Assembly (NCBI RefSeq): GCF_037975245.1
Contig: NC_092577.1
Coordinates: 6,849,001 to 6,913,000, forward strand
Origin: Apostichopus japonicus
Lineage: Eukaryota; Echinodermata; Holothuroidea; Aspidochirotida; Stichopodidae
Length of the DNA: 64,000 nt
Direction: 5' to 3'
This document shows, in pieces, positions 13,129 through 50,510 of the stretch (its first letter is position 1; every line of letters starts with the position of its first letter). A program made the position numbers and the translations under genes. The notes under the pieces were generated by a model, which was not told the origin of the DNA, made no database searches, and was given only the letters and a program-made list of their open reading frames with translations.

Positions 13129-13247
13129 ATGCACCTATGGAGATCCAGCTTTTCTCTAATTGCAGTATTCTTCGGACTTATTTTATTGCTGTACACACAC
13201 GGTATACTGAACCAGCAATTTAATCGTAGGACGAAAGCCAAAGTAGT
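13129..13247 (+). CDS. NXPE-like gene, putative exon 1 (signal anchor)
   Basis: The ATG at 13129 opens MHLWRSSFSLIAVFFGLILL, a short basic N-terminus followed by about 20 hydrophobic residues and then NQQFNRRTKAK. This is a type II signal anchor, as expected for Golgi or secretory NXPE proteins. A phase-2 donor at 13248 (GTCAGT) would join the exon at 13304 in frame, but that makes an intron of only 56 bp. The true first intron could use a different donor or a different upstream exon. The frame otherwise stops at 13261-13263. Confidence 0.45.
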
Positions 13248-13303
13248 GTCAGTTTACACCTGACGTCAAAATTGTTTATATCATCTTTACTGATTTCCGA
13301 CAG

Positions 13304-13772
13304 TGTACATCCATGCACTCCGCCGTGGCGCTCCAGCGATAACTGTACCCATCAGCAAGTTCTTGGAGGAGATGTGGACAAGCAAGTTCTACCTAATATC
13401 AAGTTTGATCAAACGACGAGCCCTTACTTTACCACTGTTAATGTTATGGAAAGGAAAACTGTTTATCACATAAACGACAAACTCGTGATCAAAATACAGG
13501 CAAGAGAGTTTAAGATATTCAGTATGAATCCTTACTCGGCTTCAAGAGAAGATGAAATGACCGATTATCAGAATGGGACATACTTTGTATATTTCACTCT
13601 GCGGTGGAGTGGTAAGGTCAACGTTTCTGTAACACTCATTCATCCTGTTGAACTACTTCCGCAGATGACTCTCACTTTGTCTGGGAAGGTCGGATTGAAC
13701 GTTACCTTTGTAGGCCAGTTCGTAGCAGGAAATGTAACTGAAGAGGTTATCTGTATGTACGCAGAACTTGAG
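13304..13772 (+). CDS. NXPE-like gene, neurexophilin-like exon
   Basis: The exon lies between the acceptor TTCCGACAG at 13303 and a strong donor GAG|GTAAGT at 13773. It carries the NXPE N-terminal (neurexophilin-related, Ig-like) domain, with the hallmark block NGTYFVYFTLRWSGKVNVSV and LIHPVE following. Several N-glycosylation sequons are present (NGT, NVS, NVT twice), consistent with lumenal or extracellular exposure. The exon ends on a codon boundary, matching the next exon. Confidence 0.85.
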
Positions 13773-14720
13773 GTAAGTCGTCGTGTTTTTTTTTTACTAT
13801 CTACAGTAAGTGGCTTTCGCAAAGGGCTCCGGAGACACGACCCACTAGGTAAATTAGTGGGAGGAAAATGGCCAATTGTGTTGTTTTAAAGCTCCTAAGA
13901 AAATACGAGCAAACGTTAAGATCAAATTATAGCCATATTTCTAGTGTAAAAATGGCTCTAAATGTTTTTTATCCCCTGAAGATGATCAACCGGCGAATCC
14001 CTAAGTTAGTTAGCTTCAACGAATTTAGGACCACGTCTACTTTATCATTAACTCATTGAGCTGCCCCTGTCCCATTCTTGCAGGTTTCTATTCTTATTTG
14101 AACCGGTCTCTCCACCACCCCCCCCCCCCCACACACCCAATCTAGCTTTCTACCATCTTAGTAAAATTGTGCACATGGCTTTTTGCAGTGATAATTATAC
14201 AGTTGTAATTGAAGTAAAAAAAAACAAGCGAAATGTACATCTTCATCTAAAACAACATAAAGTCAACTTTGATTGGATGGTAGTATATGACAAAGTATAT
14301 GAAAACTAAATTATATCCATATATCCATATATATATTTCATGAATATTGATGTATACTGACTGCAGCTTTGTCTTGGGGTTTGAATTGAGCGTTGTTCTG
14401 ACGTTCAGTTTCCAAACTTGGTCATATGGAATCAAACCTGTAGGACTGTTTGGCTCCCCTCTGTACAATCATCACGTGTACAATAACCTAAGAGTACACA
14501 ATACACGAGTATTGTGCCCCTTTAAGAATTCTTGGTTCCTACCTGTACATTCTTTGTGCGCTCTCCAACTCAGAATTGTTTGCTGCAGATCTGCATTGGT
14601 TTAGCATTTAGGAGTTATTTGGACATCAACATAGCTACTATATTCTTGGAAAAGCTTTATTAAATGAGTTTTCTTTTCAATAAGTTGACCTTGTGTAATA
14701 TTTATCTTTTTCTTTCACAG

Positions 14721-14890
14721 TGGCCATTTTGCATCTTAAGTAACCCTCGAACCCATGGACCATGGTACTGTCAGAAACCTAAGGACCCTAGACTGAAATG
14801 CAAAGATTGGAAGTACCATAAAATGTACAAAGGTTCTTTCTTAAAATTAGAGGAAAACTTATCACCGCTTTCTAAGTCGCTTTTAATGAA
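14721..14890 (+). CDS. NXPE-like gene, middle exon
   Basis: A polypyrimidine acceptor (TTTTTCTTTCACAG, ending 14720) and donor GAA|GTAAGT (14891) bound this exon. It reads WPFCILSNPRTHGPWYCQKP then CKDWKYHKMYKG and ends KSLLMK. Cys positions and the Lys/Trp-rich linker match the segment between the neurexophilin-like and PC-esterase domains of NXPE proteins. It enters in phase 0 and leaves in phase 2. Confidence 0.82.
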
Positions 14891-15718
14891 GTAAGTGCAT
14901 TTTCATTCACAACACTACCTTAAATAAGATTTTTAAAGGCAGTGGGTGTGGGGGGACAAACCATTTATTTTGTTTGAACGTTCAACTTCCACGGTTGTGT
15001 TCTTGTTCGATTGTTTTTTAATTCTTGTTCACGAGAAAGCATCACATGTAAAGAAATCCTCGGTGTCTATAGTTCATCTTAAATGAACTACACGATTCTT
15101 TTATTTTATCTGAATCTCTTTCCTTTTGATTTTACTTCAAATGGTCGCATTTTTTTAATGGTATTGTTATTATTTTTTACAAATTATGTTAATCTTTTAA
15201 CTTAACTTACTTGACATATCAATGGAAAGGTAATTACATTCGGCGAAGAAGATCTACGTGAAGTCGTTAACCGTTTGATCAAAATAGACTGACAAGAAAA
15301 CCCAAAAGAAGACTTTACTTAAAACTCATTTTAACGTTTATAATTAAAATTTGATAACGGCTATTAAGTCCTTATATATCGTGTCTTTTTTGGGAATGCT
15401 GATTAACTGCTACTAAAAACTCAAATAATCAAGAATATTGGAACCTGAAATATTTGATCACGTCGACAAATCCTAATCCCAAATGATGTTATAAACAAAT
15501 ATGAATTGGCAATTGCATCTAGGGTCGAATACAACTCAATCCAATATTTGTTTGGAAGGGTGTACCAGAATAACAAAGAAACGGTGGAAAAAATTAAAAC
15601 TTGAGCTGACTTGTGGACAGATTACCATTTAAAAACAATTATACTGGAAGGATAAGAAGACATTCAAATCGTTATAGGGTGACTAAATTTATGTAAAGTT
15701 ATCTGTTTGATTCATCAG

Positions 15719-16589
15719 ATCCCATATGGTTAAAATTCCCGCAAATCTGTCGGTGCTTGTTGAATATACCTTGTAGCGAAACCTACCCATAGAAGATATA
15801 CGCCGAATGGAGTTATCCTACTGTGAAATGAATGGTAAACCTGCTGGAATGCACACGAGTGGCCATTTCTTTCAGAATAAATGGTATCCTAACGATTGTA
15901 GAGTGGTCGATTTTTCAGTCGATACAGGGATGAAATGTCTTTCACATAAAACTATAGTCTTTCTTGGTGATTTTACCATTAGACAGGTCTTTGAGTATGT
16001 CAAAGACTATTACAAAAGATACTTGGTTCAACTTCCATTACCGGAAGGTGCCATTAAAGAACATGGACCTGTGGAATTGAAGAATGTTAAAGATAAGATT
16101 ATAATCAAATATCACTTCCATGGCCTACCTAGCTCCGGGACCGGTCTAGTTTTAAGAACAGATTACATAGAATACATAGTAGATCGAATCAATTCTAGGA
16201 AGGATGGTTGTGAGGTCGTCTACGTGTTGTCACTGTGGGCTCATTTCATAGCCACTGGTAAGATATTCTACGTTCGAAGATTATTAGCGATAAAGCAAGC
16301 AGTGACTGAGTTTCTTGATCGTTGTCCTAGGTCAAAGGTCATCATTAAAGGCGCTAACACGAAAGACCATCCCACCGTATGGATTGCTATTGTTTCTAGC
16401 GAATGGAATATAGTTCAACATGAGCTAGAATTGAGGAAGATATTTCGAGACGAGAAGAGAGTTGGTTTTATCGATGCTTTCGACATAACTAGAGTACAGC
16501 CTTTCAAGGATCAAGTTCATCCAGACAGAAAGATTGTGAAAGAGATTTTGAACAGAATTTTAACTTATATATGCAAAACAAATCAATGA
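15719..16589 (+). pseudogene. NXPE-like gene, PC-esterase exon with in-frame stop and lost catalytic Ser
   Basis: From the acceptor TTCATCAG (ending 15718) the frame joins the previous exon exactly, but meets TAG at 15774-15776. Beyond it the frame is open for 260+ codons and is clearly the NXPE C-terminal GDSL/SGNH-like PC-esterase domain. It has VFLGDFTIRQVFEY where the family has GDSxxRQ, so the nucleophile Ser is Phe (TTT at 15972-15974). It keeps the Asp-x-x-His block DQVHP (16509-16523) and ends in the family-typical ILTYIC. NXPE proteins are Golgi or secreted proteins of poorly known enzymology. The two defects suggest a decaying or non-catalytic copy. An alternative internal start at 15807 would make a domain-only protein without a signal sequence. 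No alternative AG between the TAG and 15807 restores the frame. Confidence 0.8.
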
Positions 16590-20140: not shown

Positions 20141-21253
20141 AGTTTGTAAGTTTGTGAGTAATTTTCTATATCGGCTAATGTCCGATTTGTGGCTATCAAT
20201 ATGCATGGGCACCAAGATATATAAAGAAGTCACAATCTCGTTCCTAAACGTGGCTTTTCCCTCGAATGTCATAGCTACATATTGCATGATTTGCATGCGA
20301 GTACAAATAGACACAGACCTTTTGAAAGCTATATAATTACTATTATTAACAATATCACTAATCGATATGGCCTGCCGTATATGGTGATAACCTACTTTTA
20401 TTCCGGATGAATATGTATATAGGTCGATACGTGAGATGTTATCTATTATCTCTAGCGGCTAGCTTTTAATTAACAGCTCAATTCCGTTTCGAAGGAGATA
20501 ATAAAGAAAGATGATAATAAAGATGGCAAAGGCGAAGGCGATGGCGATGGTTTCGCCTGCCCCAAACACCCCCCCCCCTTACCGGATCCCTTCCTCCTTC
20601 ATCAAATTGAATACCCTTAACATTTAAATGTAGGACCTACTCTGCGATGTAACGTCTGTAGCGCACCCAGTACGTAAATAGACGTAATGAAATACCGCAT
20701 ATAGGTTATGCTCATTTATGACGTTACCGAGTCCTGGAAATTTGATCAGAAGCCAGCGTGAATGTCATCTTTGTAGAATGCATGCATCTAACGCTACGCA
20801 ATATTTCTGTAACTAATAAATCATTATCTTTGTCAGCAACAGTGTAGAATACGAACCAAAGTGATAAGGTCACAACGCGGTATTCCTTGTTAACATACAT
20901 ACACATGTGAAAAAAAAAAAACGCGCATTACGCGCACTTTCCAAGCATAGTACTATGCAAGGGAAAACATGGATAAATTATGATCTTTGTGCGCAACCTT
21001 AGAACAAAAAAACATTTGATAGTGCTACAGTGCGGTATTCGACGCAGTAGCGTATCCCTGTTTACCAAAACATACACGTATGAACAAATGCGCGCGTGCT
21101 CTCCACTACAGGCTAATTATAACTTTATTGCGTCACAGATTAAACCATAAGTTTTGTGCACAAAGATGCACATACAGAAGATGATCGCTTCAGAGTGTCA
21201 CATGCAGCGGTCTGGTTGTATTTCTGCATCTCGAAGTCTAGAAAGTTAAAACC

Positions 21254-21354
21254 ATGATACTGCTTTATGATCTATTAGTCATAGCCTTGCCTTTGCTCTA
21301 TGCTTTCGTTGAAGATGCTATCTTCAGCATTCCGAGAATAACAAAATGGAGTCG
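21254..21354 (+). CDS. LsmAD gene, putative signal-peptide exon
   Basis: ATG at 21254 (context AAACCATGA) opens MILLYDLLVIALPLLYAF followed by a more polar stretch ending ITKWSR. It looks like a cleavable signal peptide or signal anchor. The donor is CG|GTGAGT at 21355 (phase 2). The acceptor of this exon could be CAG at 21205-21207. A secretory signal fits oddly with a LsmAD domain and basic tail, so this exon may belong to another transcript. Confidence 0.45.
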
Positions 21355-24300
21355 GTGAGTATGATGGTATAATTTATACAATAAGAGGTTAAAAGATAGA
21401 TTATCATGTAAGATCTGCTCGAAACTCTGAGGTCTCCTTAGTTACGATATTGACGATGCTTGGTTGGTTGCCCCATCTCTAAAAAAAACTTCTCTCTGTA
21501 AATATTGCAGGCATGTATGAGTTTAACGCAACTATTTTAAATGAGTTTATGTCGTTTGGACAGTACGGGGATCCCATGTTGGTACGATGGTCTGTTTCAA
21601 GGTCCCATCGCCACATGTTGGACAAGTCGGCCGGTACCGATATTAAACATGTTAACATTTGAATGGCTACGTCCTGTCGTAATTATTTATATTATTTAAT
21701 TCCCTTTCGACCTTCTCTGCAACATGACATATTTCACCGTCACGTCAATACTTCTAATTTTGTTAATGGTTTATTTCAATAATGTTCAGCTGGAAAGAAC
21801 AACCGACTGTCGCCCTTGAACTGAGCACACCCTAAGAAGGATACGATGAGAAACAAGAAAAAGCAGATATCCACGGTAACTATAATATGATCGTGTCTTG
21901 TACATGTGAAACACATGTAAATAGTATAATTTTAGCTCACTGTGATAATAGGCTGAAAGACCAATCTTAGTCATGTTATGTTTTCTCCCTCGCATGCAGC
22001 AACCTTCCTGTACGATGAGAAACGCGAAGAAGCAGATATTCCTGGTATATATAAAATGATCGTGTGTTTTTGTATCACACATGTAGATATTATTTGTTTG
22101 CCTCACTGTGAAGATAGGTTATGAACCATTCTTATAGTCATGTTATGTTTTTTTTTCACACATGCAGCAACCTTCCTGTACAATGAGAAACACGAAGAAG
22201 CAGATATTCACGGTAACTATAATATGATCGTGTGTTTTTGTATACATGTATCACACATGTAAATATCATACGTTTATCTCACTGGGATAATAGTCTGAGA
22301 GACCATTGTTAGTCAAGTTATGTTTTTTTCCCTCACACGCAGCAACTTTCCTGTACGATGAGAAACGCGAAGAAGCAGATATTGGCGGTAACTATAATAT
22401 TATAGTGTCTTGTACATGTATAACACATGTAAATTGTATACGTTTATCTCACTGGGACAATAGGCTGGAAGACCATTCTTATAGTCGTGTTATGTGTTTC
22501 CCTCACATGCAGCAACCTCCCTATTCAATGAGAAACGCGGAGAAGCAGTTACTCGTGGTAACTATAATATTGTCTTGATTATAATGTATAACACTTATAG
22601 AAATGTTACCTGATACATAAAAATTTCTCCGAATTACAGTGGTGTTATTGGTAGTCGTGAGCAGTGGGCTTTGATGTGTGTTGGGTGGGACTTTATGGCC
22701 AATGACCAAGTTAATAACCTATTAACATGATCAAATAAGGCTTCCATTACTGTGCACCGTGAAGCCGACCAATGACAGCTACTTTACGGGACTCCGCACG
22801 CAATTATCCACATTTCGCTAGCAAAATTTAATAGGTAATTACCTTGTTCGCGAGGAACATATTTGAAATAAATGTGTTTCCTTTGTTCATGAAAGTACAT
22901 CTTCCTTAGGATATATACCTTTTAATTATACAGGGCTGGTGCTATCGTTAGGCCAGCGCGGGTGCAGTACTTATCGTTGAAAAACATAATAAAAGGAAAC
23001 ATAGGCTAATAGTTCATTCAATTGGCACTGTCGAAACTATACACCCATGTAAAAGTGTAGTTCGAACGAAACTGTCGTTGAGTAACAAGGGGGCCAGTTG
23101 TACGCATGTACATGATCATTATGTCTACATACGGTTCTGGCATGTACTTATGAATAGTGGTAGGCACGTAGTTTCATGCATATGAACTTTTATCGAAGCG
23201 TATACATTCGTATTTGGAGAATTAATGATCTTGTTGTCTTCAATACACTTCATCTTATTATCACTACAGTCCCAACAAAGTGTTAGTTACTGGTTAATTG
23301 ACTTCAATGGTGTTCCAAAAATCAGATTTAGGCTTGTTAAAACAATGGAATTGAACTCGGTGTTATGATTAGGCCTAACGCATTATATATTGCCCTAATG
23401 TATGGTACATAAAGCCCTGCGCAGGGTAATGCAAAAATGAATCATACAAGTTTTGCCCGATCAGAGATACAACATTCATGAAGGGCGCCACTATTTTCAA
23501 ACGTTTGTAATTCAGGGGATTCCCCGGTGCTCAATGTCCACTCCTTTTTTTTCCTTTTTTTTTTTTTTTTTTGCTTTTCATTGTTTCTACAAAACATTTT
23601 TTCTTTGAAAATCTAGGTCCGATTTTTTTTTTTTTGGGGGGGGGAGGGGTGCAAGAAGTTGGTTTTGTCTATGGTGTAAAATACCACACTCAGTTATATC
23701 CTTCAGGTATATCTCACCATAATAATAAATTGACCATTCTTAGTTATGGTATATATTTTGTCGTCACATGCAGCCGCGTTCCTGTACGATGAAGACTTTG
23801 CCAAGCGGCCATTCCTGGAACCAATGAGACCGCGATACCTTGTCAAGTGGGAGGAGCTTAGTGACATAACTGACCACTGTCTAAATTTAGATCAGGTACA
23901 CAGACATAGTTACATATAAGCAAAATAGGAAGCCCGTGAATACGATTGTTTGTTTCTTCTAACCGTTTTGCATTCTGGAGAATTTGAACTTCCATTGTTT
24001 TAATTTCTAATTTTCAAGTTTGTAGGTTTAATTTATCCACTCTCAAACTTTAATAAACTGGTTCTCGAAACCAAATAGTCGGATTTGTCACAGTCCGATA
24101 TGGGCCACAGTAACATCTAACTTTTTATAAAGACCACAGACACCACATGTTTGTTTTTTGTTTGTTCATCTCACTTCAGGTTCGATTGCTTCCTACGCCA
24201 CTGAAATGGTTTGAGAGTAAACCAAGTTATTTGCTTTTCGTGCTCATGCAGGCTCAATCTTGGGTGACAGTCATTTCTTAAAAGATAAATTTAAGCACCA

Positions 24301-25140
24301 ACTTAATTTGGAAATGATGTAAAACTTGTCAAGGAATATTTGCTCTCAGTATATGTTGTATTTGTGAAGCACATTGAACATTTCGACAAACGACCTACTA
24401 AACGATTAAGGTTCATCGATCAAAGTGACTGGATTATGTAGTTTAATACACAGACCATTAGGAGATCATATACATTTCCCGCCTCATACGTACGATATAT
24501 TTTACGATTTAGCAGACTGACGATAAAGATTTTGGACTATAACATATCAGGACTCAACCTTCTGCCCAGAAAAAAACCTTAAAACATACGTTTTTTATTT
24601 TATAAGTCCCAAACAGAATGAAGGCTGGGAAGTCAACGAAATGTTTGATACTAACGCGATTAACTTTGGTTACAAATCAACCTTTGACAAGACTATGCCC
24701 GAGTACACGTGAGTTAAATTGAGAACTAAAGCTATAAGGTGATTATAATCAGTTCAGTCTGTGGTAAAAAACCATTACTGTACATTGTACTTATTTAATT
24801 ATATCCAATTTTGAATGCATCACTTAACACTTTATCAAATTCCTTCACAATTCCGTTGAACGATTCTTTCATGAAATGTAGGAAATGATTGCCAATGAGT
24901 ATGCGCATTATTGTCCTCCTTATTTATGGCAAGTACATTACTGTGTATTGCTCATCTTCATTAGGACCATACTGGAGAGGGAACATAAAACAGAGTACAA
25001 AATACGATGGGAGAGGGCCTGTCGTCTTGCGGATGAGATCGAAGCGAAAAAGAGAGCCGATCAAGCTTTCCAGGCCAGTCAACCAAAAAAGCGAAAAAGG
25101 AAGCCTCGTCGTTCAATCAAACGGGAAGAAAACCCTTATT
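21254..25140 (+). CDS. LsmAD (ataxin-2-type) gene with microexon array, exon model
   Basis: Proposed coding exons: 21254-21354, 21790-21875, 22000-22044, 22168-22212, 22343-22387, 22513-22557, 23774-23895, 24617-24708, 24965-25140. All junctions are GT-AG and every phase agrees in one reading frame. The frame is broken only by a TAA at 21833-21835. The C-terminus is a LsmAD domain, known from ataxin-2/Pbp1, RNA-binding proteins of stress granules and translation control. No LSm fold, PAM2 motif or polyglutamine is visible; the protein instead ends in a basic tail. The function of this short form is not inferable. It may be a live gene with a polymorphic stop, one started internally, or a pseudogene. 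Confidence 0.6.
21790..21875 (+). CDS. LsmAD gene, phase-adapter exon with premature TAA
   Basis: Acceptor TTCAATAATGTTCAG ends at 21789; donor ACG|GTAACT is at 21876. In the frame set by the previous exon it reads WKEQPTVALELSTP, a TAA stop at 21833-21835, then EGYDEKQEKADIH. The last part is homologous to the 15-residue microexon repeat. The exon turns phase 2 into phase 1, which is what the following microexons need. Its repeat half (21831-21875) lies exactly one unit upstream of the first microexon but has no acceptor of its own. Confidence 0.5.
22000..22044 (+). CDS. 45-bp microexon 1 of tandem array
   Basis: The acceptor is CGCATGCAG (ending 21999) and the donor G|GTATAT (22045). In phase 1 it encodes ATFLYDEKREEADIP. 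The length of 45 preserves the frame whether it is included or skipped. Confidence 0.6.
22168..22212 (+). CDS. 45-bp microexon 2 of tandem array
   Basis: The acceptor is TTTTTTTTCACACATGCAG (ending 22167) and the donor G|GTAACT (22213). It encodes ATFLYNEKHEEADIH in the shared frame. It has the best polypyrimidine tract of the set. Confidence 0.6.
22343..22387 (+). CDS. 45-bp microexon 3 of tandem array
   Basis: The acceptor is TTTTCCCTCACACGCAG (ending 22342) and the donor G|GTAACT (22388). It encodes ATFLYDEKREEADIG. Confidence 0.6.
22513..22557 (+). CDS. 45-bp microexon 4 of tandem array
   Basis: The acceptor is TTTCCCTCACATGCAG (ending 22512) and the donor G|GTAACT (22558). It encodes ATSLFNEKRGEAVTR, the most diverged unit, yet still open and with intact splice sites. 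Confidence 0.58.
22580..23770 (+). other. Intron-like stretch before the main LsmAD exons
   Basis: No further 45-bp unit is complete here. Just before 23770 the intron end again contains 'tatctcaccataataa', 'gaccattcttagttatg' and 'cacatgcag', the same acceptor block as in the array. Poly-T and poly-G runs lie at about 23555-23575 and 23625-23650. Confidence 0.6.
23774..23895 (+). CDS. LsmAD gene, long exon homologous to the microexons
   Basis: The acceptor is GTCACATGCAG (ending 23773) and the donor CAG|GTACAC (23896). It begins AAFLYDEDFAKRPFLEP, whose start aligns with the microexon peptide ATFLYDEKREEADI, and continues RPRYLVKWEELSDITDHCLN. This exon is the likely ancestor of the array: its first part plus acceptor was copied. 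It enters in phase 1 and ends on a codon boundary. Confidence 0.72.
24617..24708 (+). CDS. LsmAD gene, LsmAD domain exon 1
   Basis: The acceptor is CCCAAACAG (ending 24616) and the donor AC|GTGAGT (24709). It reads EGWEVNEMFDTNAINFGYKS then TFDKTMPEYT. The pattern GW-x3-EMF-x2-N-x3-FGxKSTxD-x4-YT is the N-terminal half of the LsmAD domain of ataxin-2 proteins. Confidence 0.82.
24965..25140 (+). CDS. LsmAD gene, last exon with basic tail
   Basis: The acceptor is CATCTTCATTAG (ending 24964). It continues TILEREHKTEYKIRWERACR and LADEIEAKK, the second half of LsmAD. After about 15 residues comes PKKRKRKPRRS, a classic monopartite nuclear-localisation-type cluster, then a stop at 25138-25140. 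Typical ataxin-2 proteins continue for hundreds of residues, so this is a sharply shortened form. Confidence 0.82.
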
Positions 25141-25264
25141 AATGCAATTAAAATATTAATACCCGCCAAAAGACTATTTACAGAATGCAAGGAAAACATT
25201 TTCAAAAAATTGTCACTTGATCAATGTATACATATATGTATTGTTTATTGAATGTTCTACTAAA

Positions 25265-25270
25265 AATAAA
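25265..25270 (+). terminator. Poly(A) signal AATAAA of the LsmAD gene
   Basis: AATAAA lies 125 bases after the stop codon and is followed by a GT-rich 'ttctctttgtgacgtgt' at about 25288-25305, as expected for a cleavage and polyadenylation site. Confidence 0.6.
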
Positions 25271-25511
25271 TCTTATCATGGGTGTAATTTCTCTTTGTGA
25301 CGTGTATTCCTGGGTGTTAAATGAAAATACTCGAAAAATTAGGCACCTTCGATTGGGTTGAACGTCTACATTACCACTATAACCTATAGCAGCTTTAACT
25401 GACTTTCACCGTGTTTCTGATGAATATCGTGTGTAGTTTCGATGTCTTCGGGAAGTTTATGTTAATGATAGCAAACGCATAGCAATCACTCACACAACGT
25501 AAGAAAAGGAA

Positions 25512-25805
25512 GCTTGCAACTGCCGACAAAAGGACACTTACCCACTAAATGGACACTGCCAGGCATCAAACATCATATACAAGGCCGAAGTGAAAAACAC
25601 CGACAACTGCAAGACTTACATAGGTCTAACAGAACCCCCTTTCAAGCTTAGATATGACAACCACAAGATGTCATTCGACCACCAAAAACACCAAAACGCA
25701 ACGGAGCTCCCGAAGCATATCTGGCAGCTGGAGCAGGACAACAAGCCATTCACCATCAATTGGTGAATCATTACAGTCAAATGTTCTCGAACAAAACTAA
25801 CTATA
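25512..25805 (+). mobile_element. Penelope-like element C-terminal (GIY-YIG) remnant
   Basis: The frame from 25512 reads ACNCRQKDTYPLNGHC, then IIYKAEVK, TYIGLTEPPFKLRYDNH, SF, TELPKHIWQLE and INW followed by a stop at 25764. The order Cys-rich knot, IYKAxV, YIGLT, FKxRxxNH, LSKHIW-like block and IxW is the GIY-YIG endonuclease of Penelope-like retroelements. Only the 3' end is present; no RT was found upstream. Confidence 0.82.
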
Positions 25806-26870
25806 CTCCCCATCGTACAAATGGAGAAAAGCTTACGTTCTTTTAACTTTGATGTGTGTTCTGTTTTATTTGTTTCTTAATTCAATGATTATTATCAGTA
25901 GTTAAACACTTTACTATTATTATACTTTATTATGATTACACCTAATTATTATTACCGATTATTATCACTATTCAAACACTCAAACACTCAACAAGTTAAT
26001 TGATGAAGAATCATAACCCCATTATTGAACTTTTAATCAATCTACCATACATCTCTTGCTTGGGATGCTGTTAACGAGACGATATATCTCTTTTACTGCA
26101 GACCACACAACAGGTTTACAAACAAAAACTCTATCATAGGTCACTTGAATGCAAGAGGGGAACAAGCTTTTATCAAACTGGGTCCATTTCTTGAAAGGTT
26201 GTTATTCGAAACAATTTTACCGGGTTATGTTAACAAAATAAGCTAGGTTGATTGTACATTGAAATGTCGAAACTGTAACATATTGTCCTTTCGTACTGGT
26301 CATAATTAACATCCAAATCAAGTTAACAAATATACAAATTCATCTGGTTAGAGTTTGAGGGAATATGACGTTGAAGATGACCTCAACCATCTCAATTGTT
26401 ACATCACATATTAGTGTGCTTGCATTTACATGGAACGCCAAACAATCCGGAGTGCTCATGGAAGTATGTATATAGGGCCATAGAATATAAATGTTATGCA
26501 TCCTCAAATCAGGGATCTTCAGTTTCATGAAACAAATACCGAGGATAAAACTTAGGAAATAATCGCAAGAACCTGCTCCACGTAACCATATTGAAGACAC
26601 CTGGCTACAAAGACATTGACGTTTGTGTATAGACTTAACAGAACCTTCAGGATAACTCCAAGCTTGGGAAAAAAGATATTGGTTGCCATTACAAATATTT
26701 TAGATTACATCTTTAAGTTAGTACATGTGCTAAGATTAACACTGCAGTAGACTATAGTCAGCAGACGAAGAAAGGAAACGGACCACAGAACCTTTGATCT
26801 TTTTTATTTTGTTTATTTTAGTCGATATCGCGATTCCAATGCGGTTCTGAAGGGACAAACAAGTTATAGA
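25806..26870. other. Non-coding stretch
   Basis: AT-rich; no supported gene. A minus-strand frame at 26600-26340 has no recognisable similarity. Confidence 0.35.
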
Positions 26871-26874
26871 CTCA

Positions 26875-28560
26875 CTGCTTTAGTATATAACACGACATTC
26901 AAACACTTTGATATATATTGTCAAGGTGTTATATGAGTATGAGTCTAAATTAACGTAGTTTTGACATTTCTTTTATTCAAGATTGTACAGGTTAGCGTGA
27001 CTTATCAACTCGACAAAGTCATATGTTTGATGTGTTGTCAAGTTTATTGCAAAGCAACATCTCCACAATTTCCTGAACATCTGAAACTCGAAAAGAATAT
27101 ATAATATTTATTCTGAATTCGTGCTGTACTGACACAGTAGGTCTGCATCTTGGTCTTTCAAACCACCAAACAATTCATACAATAAAAAATGAGAGTAAAA
27201 ATTGTCAAATCAAACTTATCTCTGATGGTTTTTGTAGTCACAAGTTACATATGAATTTGGTACAATTAAGTTACAAAATGTAGACCAGACTGCAACAAAC
27301 TAAATATGGGTGTATTCATTTTTGAAAAAAAAAAACGAGGACATGTTGTAATGTATGCCAGGTACAATGTAAGGTGTTTTGAAACGAAAACAACGAAACA
27401 TAATGAAAGGTCCGTGTAAATACTCTATAGTAGGATGACGGAACGATTAGCAAAAATTGACTTTTACAAGTTAATCACGCAAAACAGCTGATCGAATATG
27501 AACTGTATGGCTAACCAACTATATTCTTTCATATAACCTTTGTTCATTATACAAACAGATCTCTCATTACCTTTGTTTAATCACACTAATGGTAAATACG
27601 GTAAAAGAAAGCAAAAAAAAAAAACGAAAAGGCAAAAGAATGAAAAGGGAATAGAAATTCACAAAATATGAAAACATTTACCGGATATGATATCTAAAAA
27701 TTTAAACAACTAATCATGAAGGGCGATTTAAAGTTAATTTAAAATGTTCCTTTCTTAGCAATTTGCTAGCGGAAGATAATTCCAGAAATGGTTACAATAA
27801 TATGTGCACAACGAGGGGATAACATGAAAGGACATGTTTGTTTGCTTGTAAGAGTCTTAAAGCTTGGGCAATTAACGCCAAACATAATAAACTGCAAAGA
27901 CATTGCAACAAGAAAATACAGATATTTTCATGAAATTCTTACATTGTCTAAAAAATTCTAAAAAAGAAACCTATGATCAAATGTTTCCAGTGAACTGCTG
28001 AACTACTATTGGTCCCAGCCATGATTAAAATACAAGACCTACCATATATAGAAGTACGATGATTGATTTCAAGCTTCAGTACACAAAATGTTCAGATTGT
28101 CCTTATCTTGTTCGAATTATAATTGAATAACGTAACAAACTCGTCACTGGATTGTCTTTGATCGGCTGTAATGGAACTTAATGAAAGATACATAACTAAA
28201 GTATACATGAATATAAATGTCTAGCTTGCGTAGTGATAAGATAAAGGAAATTACGTAGAAAGCCAATCATAATAAATTAATAAACTGATTATATACCAAC
28301 TATTAATGTTATGTAATTATCATTATATTACGTAATATACACGTCATCATAAACTATACCACATATTTTGTGTACAGTGGGCTTTAAAATCCATAGATAA
28401 CAGATTGAACAATGAAAATAAACTAAGGCAATACCTGAAAAAAAAGCCCAAAGCACTCCCCCCCCCCTCCACCCCAGCAAATACAAATAAAAACAAATCA
28501 AATATTGAAATTAAAACTGGTAGCTGTAAGTGAATGTAAATGATGTATAAACTGGCATTA
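26875..28560. repeat. Segmental tandem duplication, copy A
   Basis: Blocks shared with copy B, in the same order: 'acacgacattcaaaca', 'tctaaattaacgtagtttt', 'gacttatcaact', 'ctgacacagtaggtc', 'tttcaaaccacca', 'agattcagatattttcatgaaat'-like, 'taatgttatgtaat', 'attacgtaatatacacg' and 'acagtgggctttaaaatc'. No coding content was seen. Confidence 0.8.
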
Positions 28561-28589
28561 CTTGTAGCAACAATCTGTTACTGTTTTAG

Positions 28590-29400
28590 TATATATATAA
28601 CACGACATTCAAACAATTTGATAATCTTTGCCAAGGTGTCATGTGAGTGTTAGTCTAAATTAACGTAGTTTTTGACATTTCTTTATTCAAGATTTAACAG
28701 GTAAGAGTGACTTATCAACTTATTGACTTATTGCAAAGCAACAACTCGACAACGTCCTGAAGTCTGAAACTCAAAAACAATATACAATATTGTTTTCTGA
28801 TGTCTTGCTGTACTGACACAGTAGGTCAACATCTTGGCCTTTCAAACCACCATACAATTCATAAAATAAAAAAAATTGGAGTAAAAATTGTCAAATTAAA
28901 CTTTTCTCTGATGGTTTTTTGTAGTCACAAGCAAGTTACATATGCATTTGGTACAATTAAGTTTACAAAATGGATTCCAGACTGCAACACACTAAATATG
29001 TTTTTTTTTCAGAGTTTAACTTGGTTTGAATGACATAAGAAACTGCAAAGACGTGTGTTAACAACAAAATAACGATATTTTCATGAAATACATTGTGTAA
29101 AATATTCTAAAATAATTTATAAATTAACTGATTAAGTAAAAAATATTAATGTTATGTAATGATCATGATATTACGTAATATACACGCCATCGTAAATCAT
29201 ACCACGTATTATATTTACAGTGGGCTTTAAAATCTATAGATTACAGAACGAACCATGAAAAAAAAACAAAGACAAAAGCCCCCCAAAAAAGACGCAAAAC
29301 ACCCCTACTCCCCCCGAAAAAAAAAATTTAACAAATTAAAAATTAAGTGAATGTAAATGATGCATAAACTGTTATTACTTGTAACAAAAAACTGTTATAG
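28590..29400. repeat. Segmental tandem duplication, copy B (internally deleted)
   Basis: It repeats the copy A blocks in order but is about half as long. The region matching 27320-27880 of copy A is missing. Poly-A and poly-C runs differ between copies. Confidence 0.8.
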
Positions 29401-30760: not shown

Positions 30761-31585
30761 AACTCTTACTACGTAGTATATTCTGAGAAAATGCAGCAAA
30801 AAAAAAATCATAAATTACATTACAACGTTACATTTAATACTCCGTTTAGTGCAGCATGCGAGTACAATTACACATTATCACTTGTTAATCCATTTAATGT
30901 AACAAGGAATTATACATTCATTATAGTATGTATCAGTAGTTGATCCGTCTAATATAACAAGGAATGACACATTCGATATATTATTTAGCTTTAGTTAATC
31001 ATTGCATGTTCATAACTTGATTATAACCTACATTCACTATGATATTACGCAATGACATTTAATCTATATGATAAAGAACATTATAACACATGTTCTATGT
31101 CTATATAACAGCAGTAAATCCGTTCCATATGTCACATGAATGAACAATCGTTATATGAAGAAGTAGCAGTTAATGCGTTCTATACGTCACGTGTCTACAA
31201 CAACAAAAAGAGTTCAGCAGAAATGGAAGGCAAGGTTCTCTCAAGATTTATTTTAATGTTATTTGAAACGAAAAGACGAGCATCGTTGATAATTAATATC
31301 TACTTCTAAAATATGATAAGTAATCAGAAAGTGAAACACGGTTAACCAATGATAAATGATGAATTGAACACAAAGATTGCGGGACGTTGGTTGTTCTCAT
31401 GCGCGTTAGATCGACAACTTAACCAAATGGCCCGGTCGTTCTGCAAACCACCTGATTGAAGATGGCAGACGTTGGATTAATATTATTAAGTATTGTGAAC
31501 CTCATAATGTGTAGAATCTTGGAGGAGGTCATCGGGCCAACATGGCTTAGACTATTGATTGGTTAACTAAATAAAACAGTCTGCT
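30760..31585. other. Non-coding stretch
   Basis: AT-rich, with loosely repeated 'ttaatccgtt(c/t)' and 'ataacaaggaat' motifs. No gene was identified. Confidence 0.35.
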
Positions 31586-49545: not shown

Positions 49546-49814
49546 AGAGGATTTTGTGGTGGTTATTCCAGACATTAATCAAAGAAAATGGGACGTAGGC
49601 TATTAATATCAGAGCTTAAGTATTTCGTCATGGCATAAGTCTCAGCATACCGGTTCTTAAGCTAATATTTGAGTAGAGCTTGATAAGTACTTCATACCCG
49701 ACGAATCTAAGTGTTTTCTACATAACGATATCTCAAATAACATACTTAAAAGAAAGAAAGGTACAATGGAAATTTTCTGATATAAACACGTATAGAAGTA
49801 AAACATTAAGCTTT

Positions 49815-50510
49815 TTTCAAGGTCCCGTTACACTCATTAAAGAAGTAATGATTTAGTGGTCATTTTAATTGGTCAAGCACTCTTTGGACCGGGCAAGACG
49901 CATTATAGTACCCTTCTACAATGTCTTTGGAGTTCATATGACTCATTGGTTGGATGGTCCAAGGCGTGCTGGTCTTGATTAGGACCCAAATGTTTTTCAT
50001 TCGTTGTCCCGTACCACTATTTTAATAATTGATTATTTAGTTGTCATTTTAATTGGTCAAGCACTCTTTGGACCGGGCAAGACGCATTATTGTACCCTTC
50101 TATAATGTCTTTAGAGTTCATATGACCCATTGGTTAGGTGGTCCAAGCCGTGCTGGTTTTGATTAGGGCCTTAAGGTGTTTTTCAGGTCCCGTTACTTTC
50201 ATTTAAGAAGTGATTATGCAGGGGTCATTTTAATTGGTCAAGCACTCTTTGGACCGGGCAAGACGCATTATGGTACTGTTCTAAATTGTCATTAAAGTTC
50301 ATATGACCCATTAGGTAGGTGGTCCAAGGCGTGCTAGTCTTGATTAAGGCCTAAAGTGATTTTTCGTCAGGTCCCGTTTCCGTTACATTAATTTAAGAAC
50401 CGATGATGTAGTGGTCATTTTAGTTGGTCAAGAACTCTTTGGACCGGGCAAGATGCACTATGGTACCCATTTACATTGTCATTAGAGTTCAAATGACCTA
50501 GATAAACCTC
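49815..50510 (+). repeat. 181-bp tandem repeat, about four copies
   Basis: The phrase 'caagcactctttggaccggg' begins at about 49873, 50056 and 50237, with a variant 'caagaactc' at about 50428. Each unit also has 'agttcatatgac(t/c)cattgg' and 'ggtggtccaa(g)gcgtgct'. It lies inside the fold-back element and has no open frame. Confidence 0.9.

Follow-up and report, generated by a model that had tools for sequence, protein, structure and literature searches.

A tandem array of 45-nt hybrid exons that probably forms an in-frame spacer in short LsmAD genes of Apostichopus japonicus

A 64,000-nucleotide stretch of the Apostichopus japonicus genome (RefSeq assembly GCF_037975245.1, contig NC_092577.1; hereafter the window, with positions counted from its first letter on the forward strand) contains an LsmAD gene in which a very short exon and its intron are repeated in tandem. 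Are these units exons, how did they arise, and what would they do to the protein? The initial annotation had described a tandem array with four complete 45-bp phase-1 units at about 170-bp spacing, and this was borne out by Tandem Repeats Finder, by a repeat finder and by reading of the splice sites (Table 1). The repeat finder spaced the copies at 168, 175, and 170 nt, and a fifth, partial copy ends at 23792. As exon 2, the units and exon 3 all meet in phase 1, the frame is kept with any number of units. The frame logic behind the proposed protein with zero to four repeats was therefore sound, but the window copy as sequenced cannot encode it because of an in-frame TAA in exon 2.

Table 1. 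Features of the array-bearing LsmAD gene in the window (NC_092577.1).
Feature	Position	Strand	Donor phase	Description
Exon 1, first coding	21254..21354	+	2	101 nt; ATG; MILLYDLLVIALPLLYAFVEDAIFSIPRITKWSR; hydrophobic N-terminus; donor GT at 21355
Exon 2 (exon A)	21790..21875	+	1	86 nt; tail from TACGATGA is a half-unit; donor GTAACT
In-frame TAA in exon 2, window copy	21833..21835	+		CAA in five of six other copies, CAT in one
170-bp tandem array, exon + intron units	21842..22570	+		Tandem Repeats Finder: period 170, 4.3 copies, 79% matches
Unit 1, 45-nt micro-exon	22000..22044	+	1	ATFLYDEKREEADIP; AG before, GT after
Unit 2, 45-nt micro-exon	22168..22212	+	1	ATFLYNEKHEEADIH; AG before, GT after
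Unit 3, 45-nt micro-exon	22343..22387	+	1	ATFLYDEKREEADIG; AG before, GT after
Unit 4, 45-nt micro-exon	22513..22557	+	1	ATSLFNEKRGEAVTR; AG before, GT after
Exon 3 (exon B)	23774..23895	+	0	AAFLYDEDFAKRPFL...; second parent of the units through its acceptor and head
Exon 4 (exon C)	24617..24708	+	2	LsmAD part 1
Exon 5 (exon D)	24965..25142	+		LsmAD part 2, basic tail; stop at 25140-25142

Exon 2 had been taken for the start exon, which was ruled out by an alignment of seven copies of the gene; this revealed a further open exon upstream (exon 1) with a phase-2 donor that joins in frame to exon 2. Exon 1 is open in six of the seven aligned copies (the exception, L010, has a 1-nt deletion; L016 has no exon 1), and exon 2 has its AG and GT flanks and a length of 86 nt in all seven copies that possess it. 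The half-unit reported at the tail of exon 2 is indeed present, but exon 2 is not open in the window copy, where the TAA falls in the frame that yields GYDEKQEKADIH. Nor would the frame survive skipping of exon 2, since the phase-2 donor of exon 1 would then meet a phase-1 acceptor. Because of the TAA and this loss of frame on skipping, the gene copy in the window has probably lost its function, unless the TAA reflects a polymorphism or an error in the assembly. The first 19 residues of the predicted protein are strongly hydrophobic, with a 19-residue hydropathy maximum of 2.35 for window exon 1 and of 2.35-2.60 in four sequences, values that express hydropathy only. The assignment to LsmAD (PF06741) held, as the joined window exons 3-5 scored 32.5 bits against a Pfam cut-off of 25, and exon 3 opens, as had been stated, with AAFLYDEDF in the same phase as the units. 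Further upstream in the window, matches to Neurexophilin (35.4 bits) and to NXPE4 C-terminal (174.8 bits) at 13230-16586 mark an NXPE-type gene.

The genome was searched in a 671.6-Mb assembly of 35 contigs, in which the window is C17:6849001-6913000. The array DNA matched at least 15 stretches in at least eight places, all of them on C17 between 5.96 and 9.28 Mb, and eight array copies were compared, namely the window copy and seven other C17 loci (L010-L016). The same arrangement at seven other loci of the same chromosome makes the array more than chance, and since it is kept in eight gene copies it looks like a real exon array. The number of units per copy varies from 2 to 7. Two of the eight copies are open: the joined sequence of L014 is open from end to end over 237 residues with 3 units, and L011 is open from end to end with four of its five units, leaving out one unit with a TT donor. 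The other six copies carry a lesion, which indicates that much of the array-bearing subfamily is decaying. Besides the TAA of the window copy and the deletion in exon 1 of L010, which also has a GC donor at exon 4, these are the loss of 4 nt from the end of exon 3 and a gain of 5 nt within exon 5 (L012), a 1-nt deletion in exon 3 (L015), loss of the acceptor and the start of exon 5 (L013), and a stop in the first unit together with the absence of exons 1 and 2 from the stretch read (L016).

The homology of the copies far exceeds the gene; in comparisons of stretches cut at 10 kb it could be followed from about 20179 as far as about 24900-29000, depending on the copy. A transposon may carry the gene, as the copies share a start of the long homology near 20179, but the homology resumes further upstream in several copies, which fits segmental duplication. 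Inside the duplicated segment, at 25503-25766, lies an open frame (EKEACNCRQKDTYPLNGHC...) that had no Pfam match; it resembles the GIY-YIG-type segment of a Penelope-like element. Within the arrays, units 4-7 of L013 (C17:7041001-7051000) are four nearly identical units in a row, which suggests recent growth of this array, and the tree of L012 pairs units 2 and 4 and units 3 and 5, as after a two-unit duplication. Exon 2 of L014 carries the unit version CGCGAAGAAG, which looks like a case of gene conversion.

The origin of the units was traced by anchoring all 34 units of the eight copies on the starts of exon 3 (eight copies) and the ends of exon 2 (seven copies). Identity to exon 3 was 0.85-0.98 over the last 10 intron bases, only 0.35 at the first five exon bases (offsets 0-4), 0.96 at offsets 5-9, and no more than about 0.2-0.3 from offset 20 on. 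For exon 2 the identity was 0.03 at offsets 5-9 and 0.97 at offsets 15-19, lay between 0.45 and 0.92 beyond offset 19 to the exon end, and was 0.94 at the donor. The units thus switch parents between offsets 12 and 19, with bases 6-12 still matching exon 3, and at the switch both exons share TACGATGA, which reads Y-D-E in each. Judged by these identities, each 45-nt unit is a chimera that takes its acceptor and head from exon 3 and its tail and donor from exon 2. One tandem duplication between the two TACGATGA points would have created the first hybrid exon. Since Y-D-E is read in both parents at the switch, such a duplication would keep the frame without any selection, and it would explain why the units are 45 nt long and symmetric; unequal exchange may then have altered their number in each copy. 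In internal exon duplication, a tandem copy that runs from an exon tail through an intron into an exon head produces an additional internal exon, whose splice sites come with it. The mechanism proposed here is the same, with the product multiplied to two to seven units and found in eight paralogs. Relatives of the gene on C15 and C21 have an exon 2 that ends in ...EK...SHG and an exon 3 that starts with AFLFDED or AFLYDDD, and no units were detected between these exons in the one C15 and the one C21 gene read upstream. Because these relatives have both exons and no detected array, the parent exons appear to be older than the array.

Do the units behave as exons? The set comprised 34 units in the eight loci; heads and cores were scanned separately, and every head had a core at the same offset. 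All 34 units are 45 nt long, in phase 1 and preceded by an AG acceptor; the donor is GT in 32 and GC in one, and 33 of the 34 are free of stops. No indel was found inside any of the 34 exons, while the flanking introns show 7 distinct gap patterns in one stretch of about 42 bases and 12 in another of about 55, both outside the T-tract; given these patterns, the Poisson probability of zero indels in the units is about 1.5e-4. The four AG/GT bases of the units underwent 2 changes against 7-11 expected (P 0.03 to 0.001), and 64 substitutions in the units compare with 104 expected at the intron rate (a ratio of 0.62). Neither the long inter-unit gaps nor the last introns contained decayed units, blastn detecting only unit flanks there; together with the separate scan of heads and cores this means that the count was not made by the choice of units. 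Few indels were also seen in the other exons of the gene, so that resistance to indels is not special to the units.

The residues of the units gave a different picture. Their dN/dS was about 1.17, close to what neutral change would give (49.5 replacement and 13.5 silent changes, binomial p 0.66), and the single stop compares with about 3.3 expected, a shortfall that is not significant (p 0.15); these rates were obtained by parsimony on one tree, which ignores gene conversion. Selection on the amino acids of the units is hence not shown. Equal synonymous and nonsynonymous change accompanied by many stops had been named beforehand as evidence against the array; the former was observed and the latter was not, with a stop in one of 34 units. 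Codon position 3 is the least variable in the units (5.1% non-modal bases vs 10.0% at position 1 and 8.2% at position 2), whereas ordinary protein constraint would leave position 3 the most variable. Exon 2 resembled the units with a pooled pN/pS of 1.04 (seven of eight copies), while lower values were obtained for exon 1 (0.53), exon 3 (0.49), and exons 4-5 (0.59), each from six of the eight copies; copies with a frameshift, without the exon, or with the exon beyond the stretch read were left out. Across subfamilies, omega was 0.12-0.24 in exons 4-5, indicating purifying selection; against the C15 and C21 genes it was 0.13-0.24 there and 0.11-0.25 in exon 3. The linker formed by exon 2 and the units therefore seems to be free in its residues but not in its frame.

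Within the units, change per site was 1.0 at offsets 18-35 (the GAA-rich core), 2.6 at offsets 36-43, and 1.1 at offsets 0-11 (the head). The GAA-rich core presumably resembles a purine-rich splicing enhancer; the head changes equally slowly. A spliced retrocopy junction was seen in none of 25 genome matches of the joined exon 2-unit-unit-exon 3 peptide, 24 of which were confined to exon 3, while the remaining one covered one unit and four residues past it. We consider inclusion of the units in mRNA likely.

The splice sites of the units have features in common with a known class of micro-exons. The acceptor is TGCAG in 31 of the 34 units, and none of the 34 donors has a G at +5; the exon 2 donors of the C15 and C21 genes are GTAAG in all three seen. 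Introns between exon 2 and unit 1 and most of those between units measure 123-134 nt, with two longer ones of 430 and 448 nt; the last intron measures 1.0-2.4 kb, and the AG-free stretch ahead of the 34 units is only 23-36 nt. Features named for fly eMIC exons include weak 5' splice sites, UGC motifs, short flanking introns, long polypyrimidine tracts, and long AG exclusion zones (PMC8797185). The units are like eMIC (Srrm3/4) micro-exons in having UGC near the 3' splice site, a weak donor, short introns and a T-rich tract, but their short AG-free stretch is no long AG exclusion zone. As exon 3 likewise has a TGCAG acceptor, the UGC of the units may be mere descent.

The gene belongs to a larger family. 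An LsmAD query returned 97 matches in 37 clusters (5-kb linkage) on C17, C21, C15, C19, C12, C9, C13, and C3; among the clusters is the ataxin-2 of this genome, and two single matches, the weakest (E 0.09 and 0.13), may be due to chance. LsmAD scores were 29.7 bits for the L014 protein, 36.6 for a C15 protein and 29.4 for a C21 protein. The C15 and C21 genes are 52-75% identical to the window in exon 3, 67-73% in exon 4, and 62-67% in exon 5. Exon 2 is far less alike, with 36-39% identity between C21 and the window, and that of C15 was recognised using the C21 one. A relative of exon 1 was found for the C15 gene; for the C21 gene none was found in the 7 kb read. A Chromo domain on exon 3 was discarded, as it scored 19 bits against a cut-off of 25.1 over 16 residues, 14.3 bits in L014, and was not among the matches given for the C15 and C21 pieces. 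The C15 gene (L047, C15:6521001-6531000, reverse strand), in which no unit was detected, instead has the pair of exons 2 and 3 twice, 2.86 kb apart and 92% alike; their phases bar joining both pairs in series, so that they would be alternatives. Four exon 3-like matches of equal score on C9 (4527387, 4533440, 4539505, and 4545545) lie about 6.05 kb apart and may represent additional relatives in a recently formed tandem cluster. Elsewhere in the assembly, COX1-like pieces with TGA codons were noted at C29:14745-16086 and 30842-31219, with the main COX1 copy on C35. Translated with genetic code 9 (AAA Asn, ATA Ile), this mitochondrial copy on C35 yields a conventional COX1, whereas code 5 would place Lys and Met at these positions, as expected of an echinoderm.

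How does this family relate to ataxin-2? Both LsmAD intron positions are common to the family and the genome's own ataxin-2, phase 0 before GW and phase 2 after EY; at the latter, GAATACAC precedes the donor GTGAGT in ataxin-2 and GAGTACAC precedes GTGAGT in the window. SM-ATX (PF14438) gave no match up to E 1 in the joined L014 protein, to which further 5' exons may belong, and one match only in the whole genome, at C15:17600172 and by the genome's own ataxin-2, in an exon-by-exon search of the kind that missed the family's LsmAD. No PAM2 family was among the Pfam matches up to E 1 for L014, although a motif this short is easily missed. Ataxin-2 has a single ortholog in surveyed species except vertebrates and land plants, according to a published survey (PMC4105795). 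Compared with ataxin-2 (LSm, LsmAD, and PAM2), the window family shares an LsmAD above the Pfam cut-off and both intron positions with their phases, but it is short and multi-copy, has a hydrophobic N-terminus, and gave no SM-ATX match. By its domain content it does not look like full ataxin-2.

Taken as a whole, these data are best explained by a lineage-specific array of hybrid exons that serves as an in-frame spacer in short LsmAD genes, a reading we consider probable. The array genes would constitute a multi-copy family of short, ataxin-2-related proteins with a hydrophobic N-terminus, a charged linker, LsmAD, and a basic tail. Working copies would include the units in their mRNA as in-frame micro-exons; LsmAD would then be set apart from the hydrophobic N-terminal segment by a longer charged spacer, which is probably disordered, and the frame and splice competence of the units would outweigh their exact residues. 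The array might instead be a decaying intronic minisatellite, whose units are splice-competent by construction and unused and whose open frame is inherited, not selected. A unit dN/dS near 1, the breakage of six of the eight copies, the failure to find a spliced retrocopy among the 25 genome matches, and the presence of other tandem repeats in the window (e.g., 49812-50498, period 184) all agree with this account; we nevertheless regard it as rather unlikely, since the 34 exons are free of the indels that are frequent in the introns, the splice dinucleotides are retained, and exon substitutions reach 0.62 of the number expected from introns.

Two further readings were weighed. If the units were mutually exclusive, with one per transcript, they would offer a choice of sequence and no change of length, which would suit the concentration of replacements at unit codons 6, 13, and 15 and the near constancy of codons 7, 8, and 11, a pattern suggestive of variation at set positions. 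Yet the unit junctions share their phase, so that the frame forces no exclusion, and introns of 123-134 nt between most units are by themselves no bar to joining them; we judge this very unlikely. Most improbable of all is the reverse order of events, in which a longer array came first, opened mid-way, and left the tail of exon 2 and the head of exon 3 behind. A half-unit and a downstream exon do flank the array as end-remnants would, but the C15 and C21 genes have such a tail and head with no array detected, one gene of each having been read upstream. Beyond the hybrid-exon array itself, we may imagine membrane-anchored or secreted LsmAD proteins of the echinoderm lineage in which hybrid exons, whose acceptors are of the UGC type and whose donors are weak, form a regulated ladder; cell types would include different numbers of the 15-residue charged units, unequal exchange would also set the number, and the spacer would be tuned by both DNA copy number and splicing. 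This extension is speculative and quite unlikely to hold in full.

Tandem 81-base exon repeats were reportedly described in a paper of 1988. Gene families built of in-frame micro-exons are already known, as the Schistosoma MEGs show: these are multi-copy families with a conserved N-terminal signal peptide and short internal exons of 6-81 bp, mostly 15 bp and mostly multiples of three (PMC10526429). By description, the array genes are like MEGs in forming a multi-copy family with several same-phase internal exons divisible by three; they differ in that their exons are 45-bp near-identical hybrids of two neighbouring exons and lie in an LsmAD gene. Among the titles listed for ataxin-2 and microexons none concerned such an array, although it may still have been published.

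Read in this way, the array is a clear sequence record of a frame-preserving exon that would have been born in one step and then multiplied, with the parents, the switch point, and array-free relatives of the hybrid exon all in one genome. It also draws attention to an LsmAD-only family (37 clusters including one ordinary ataxin-2) that goes unmentioned in the accessible text of the ataxin-2 survey (PMC4105795). If the units are variably spliced, the copies with 2-7 units would provide a natural series for the effect of spacer length on an LsmAD protein.
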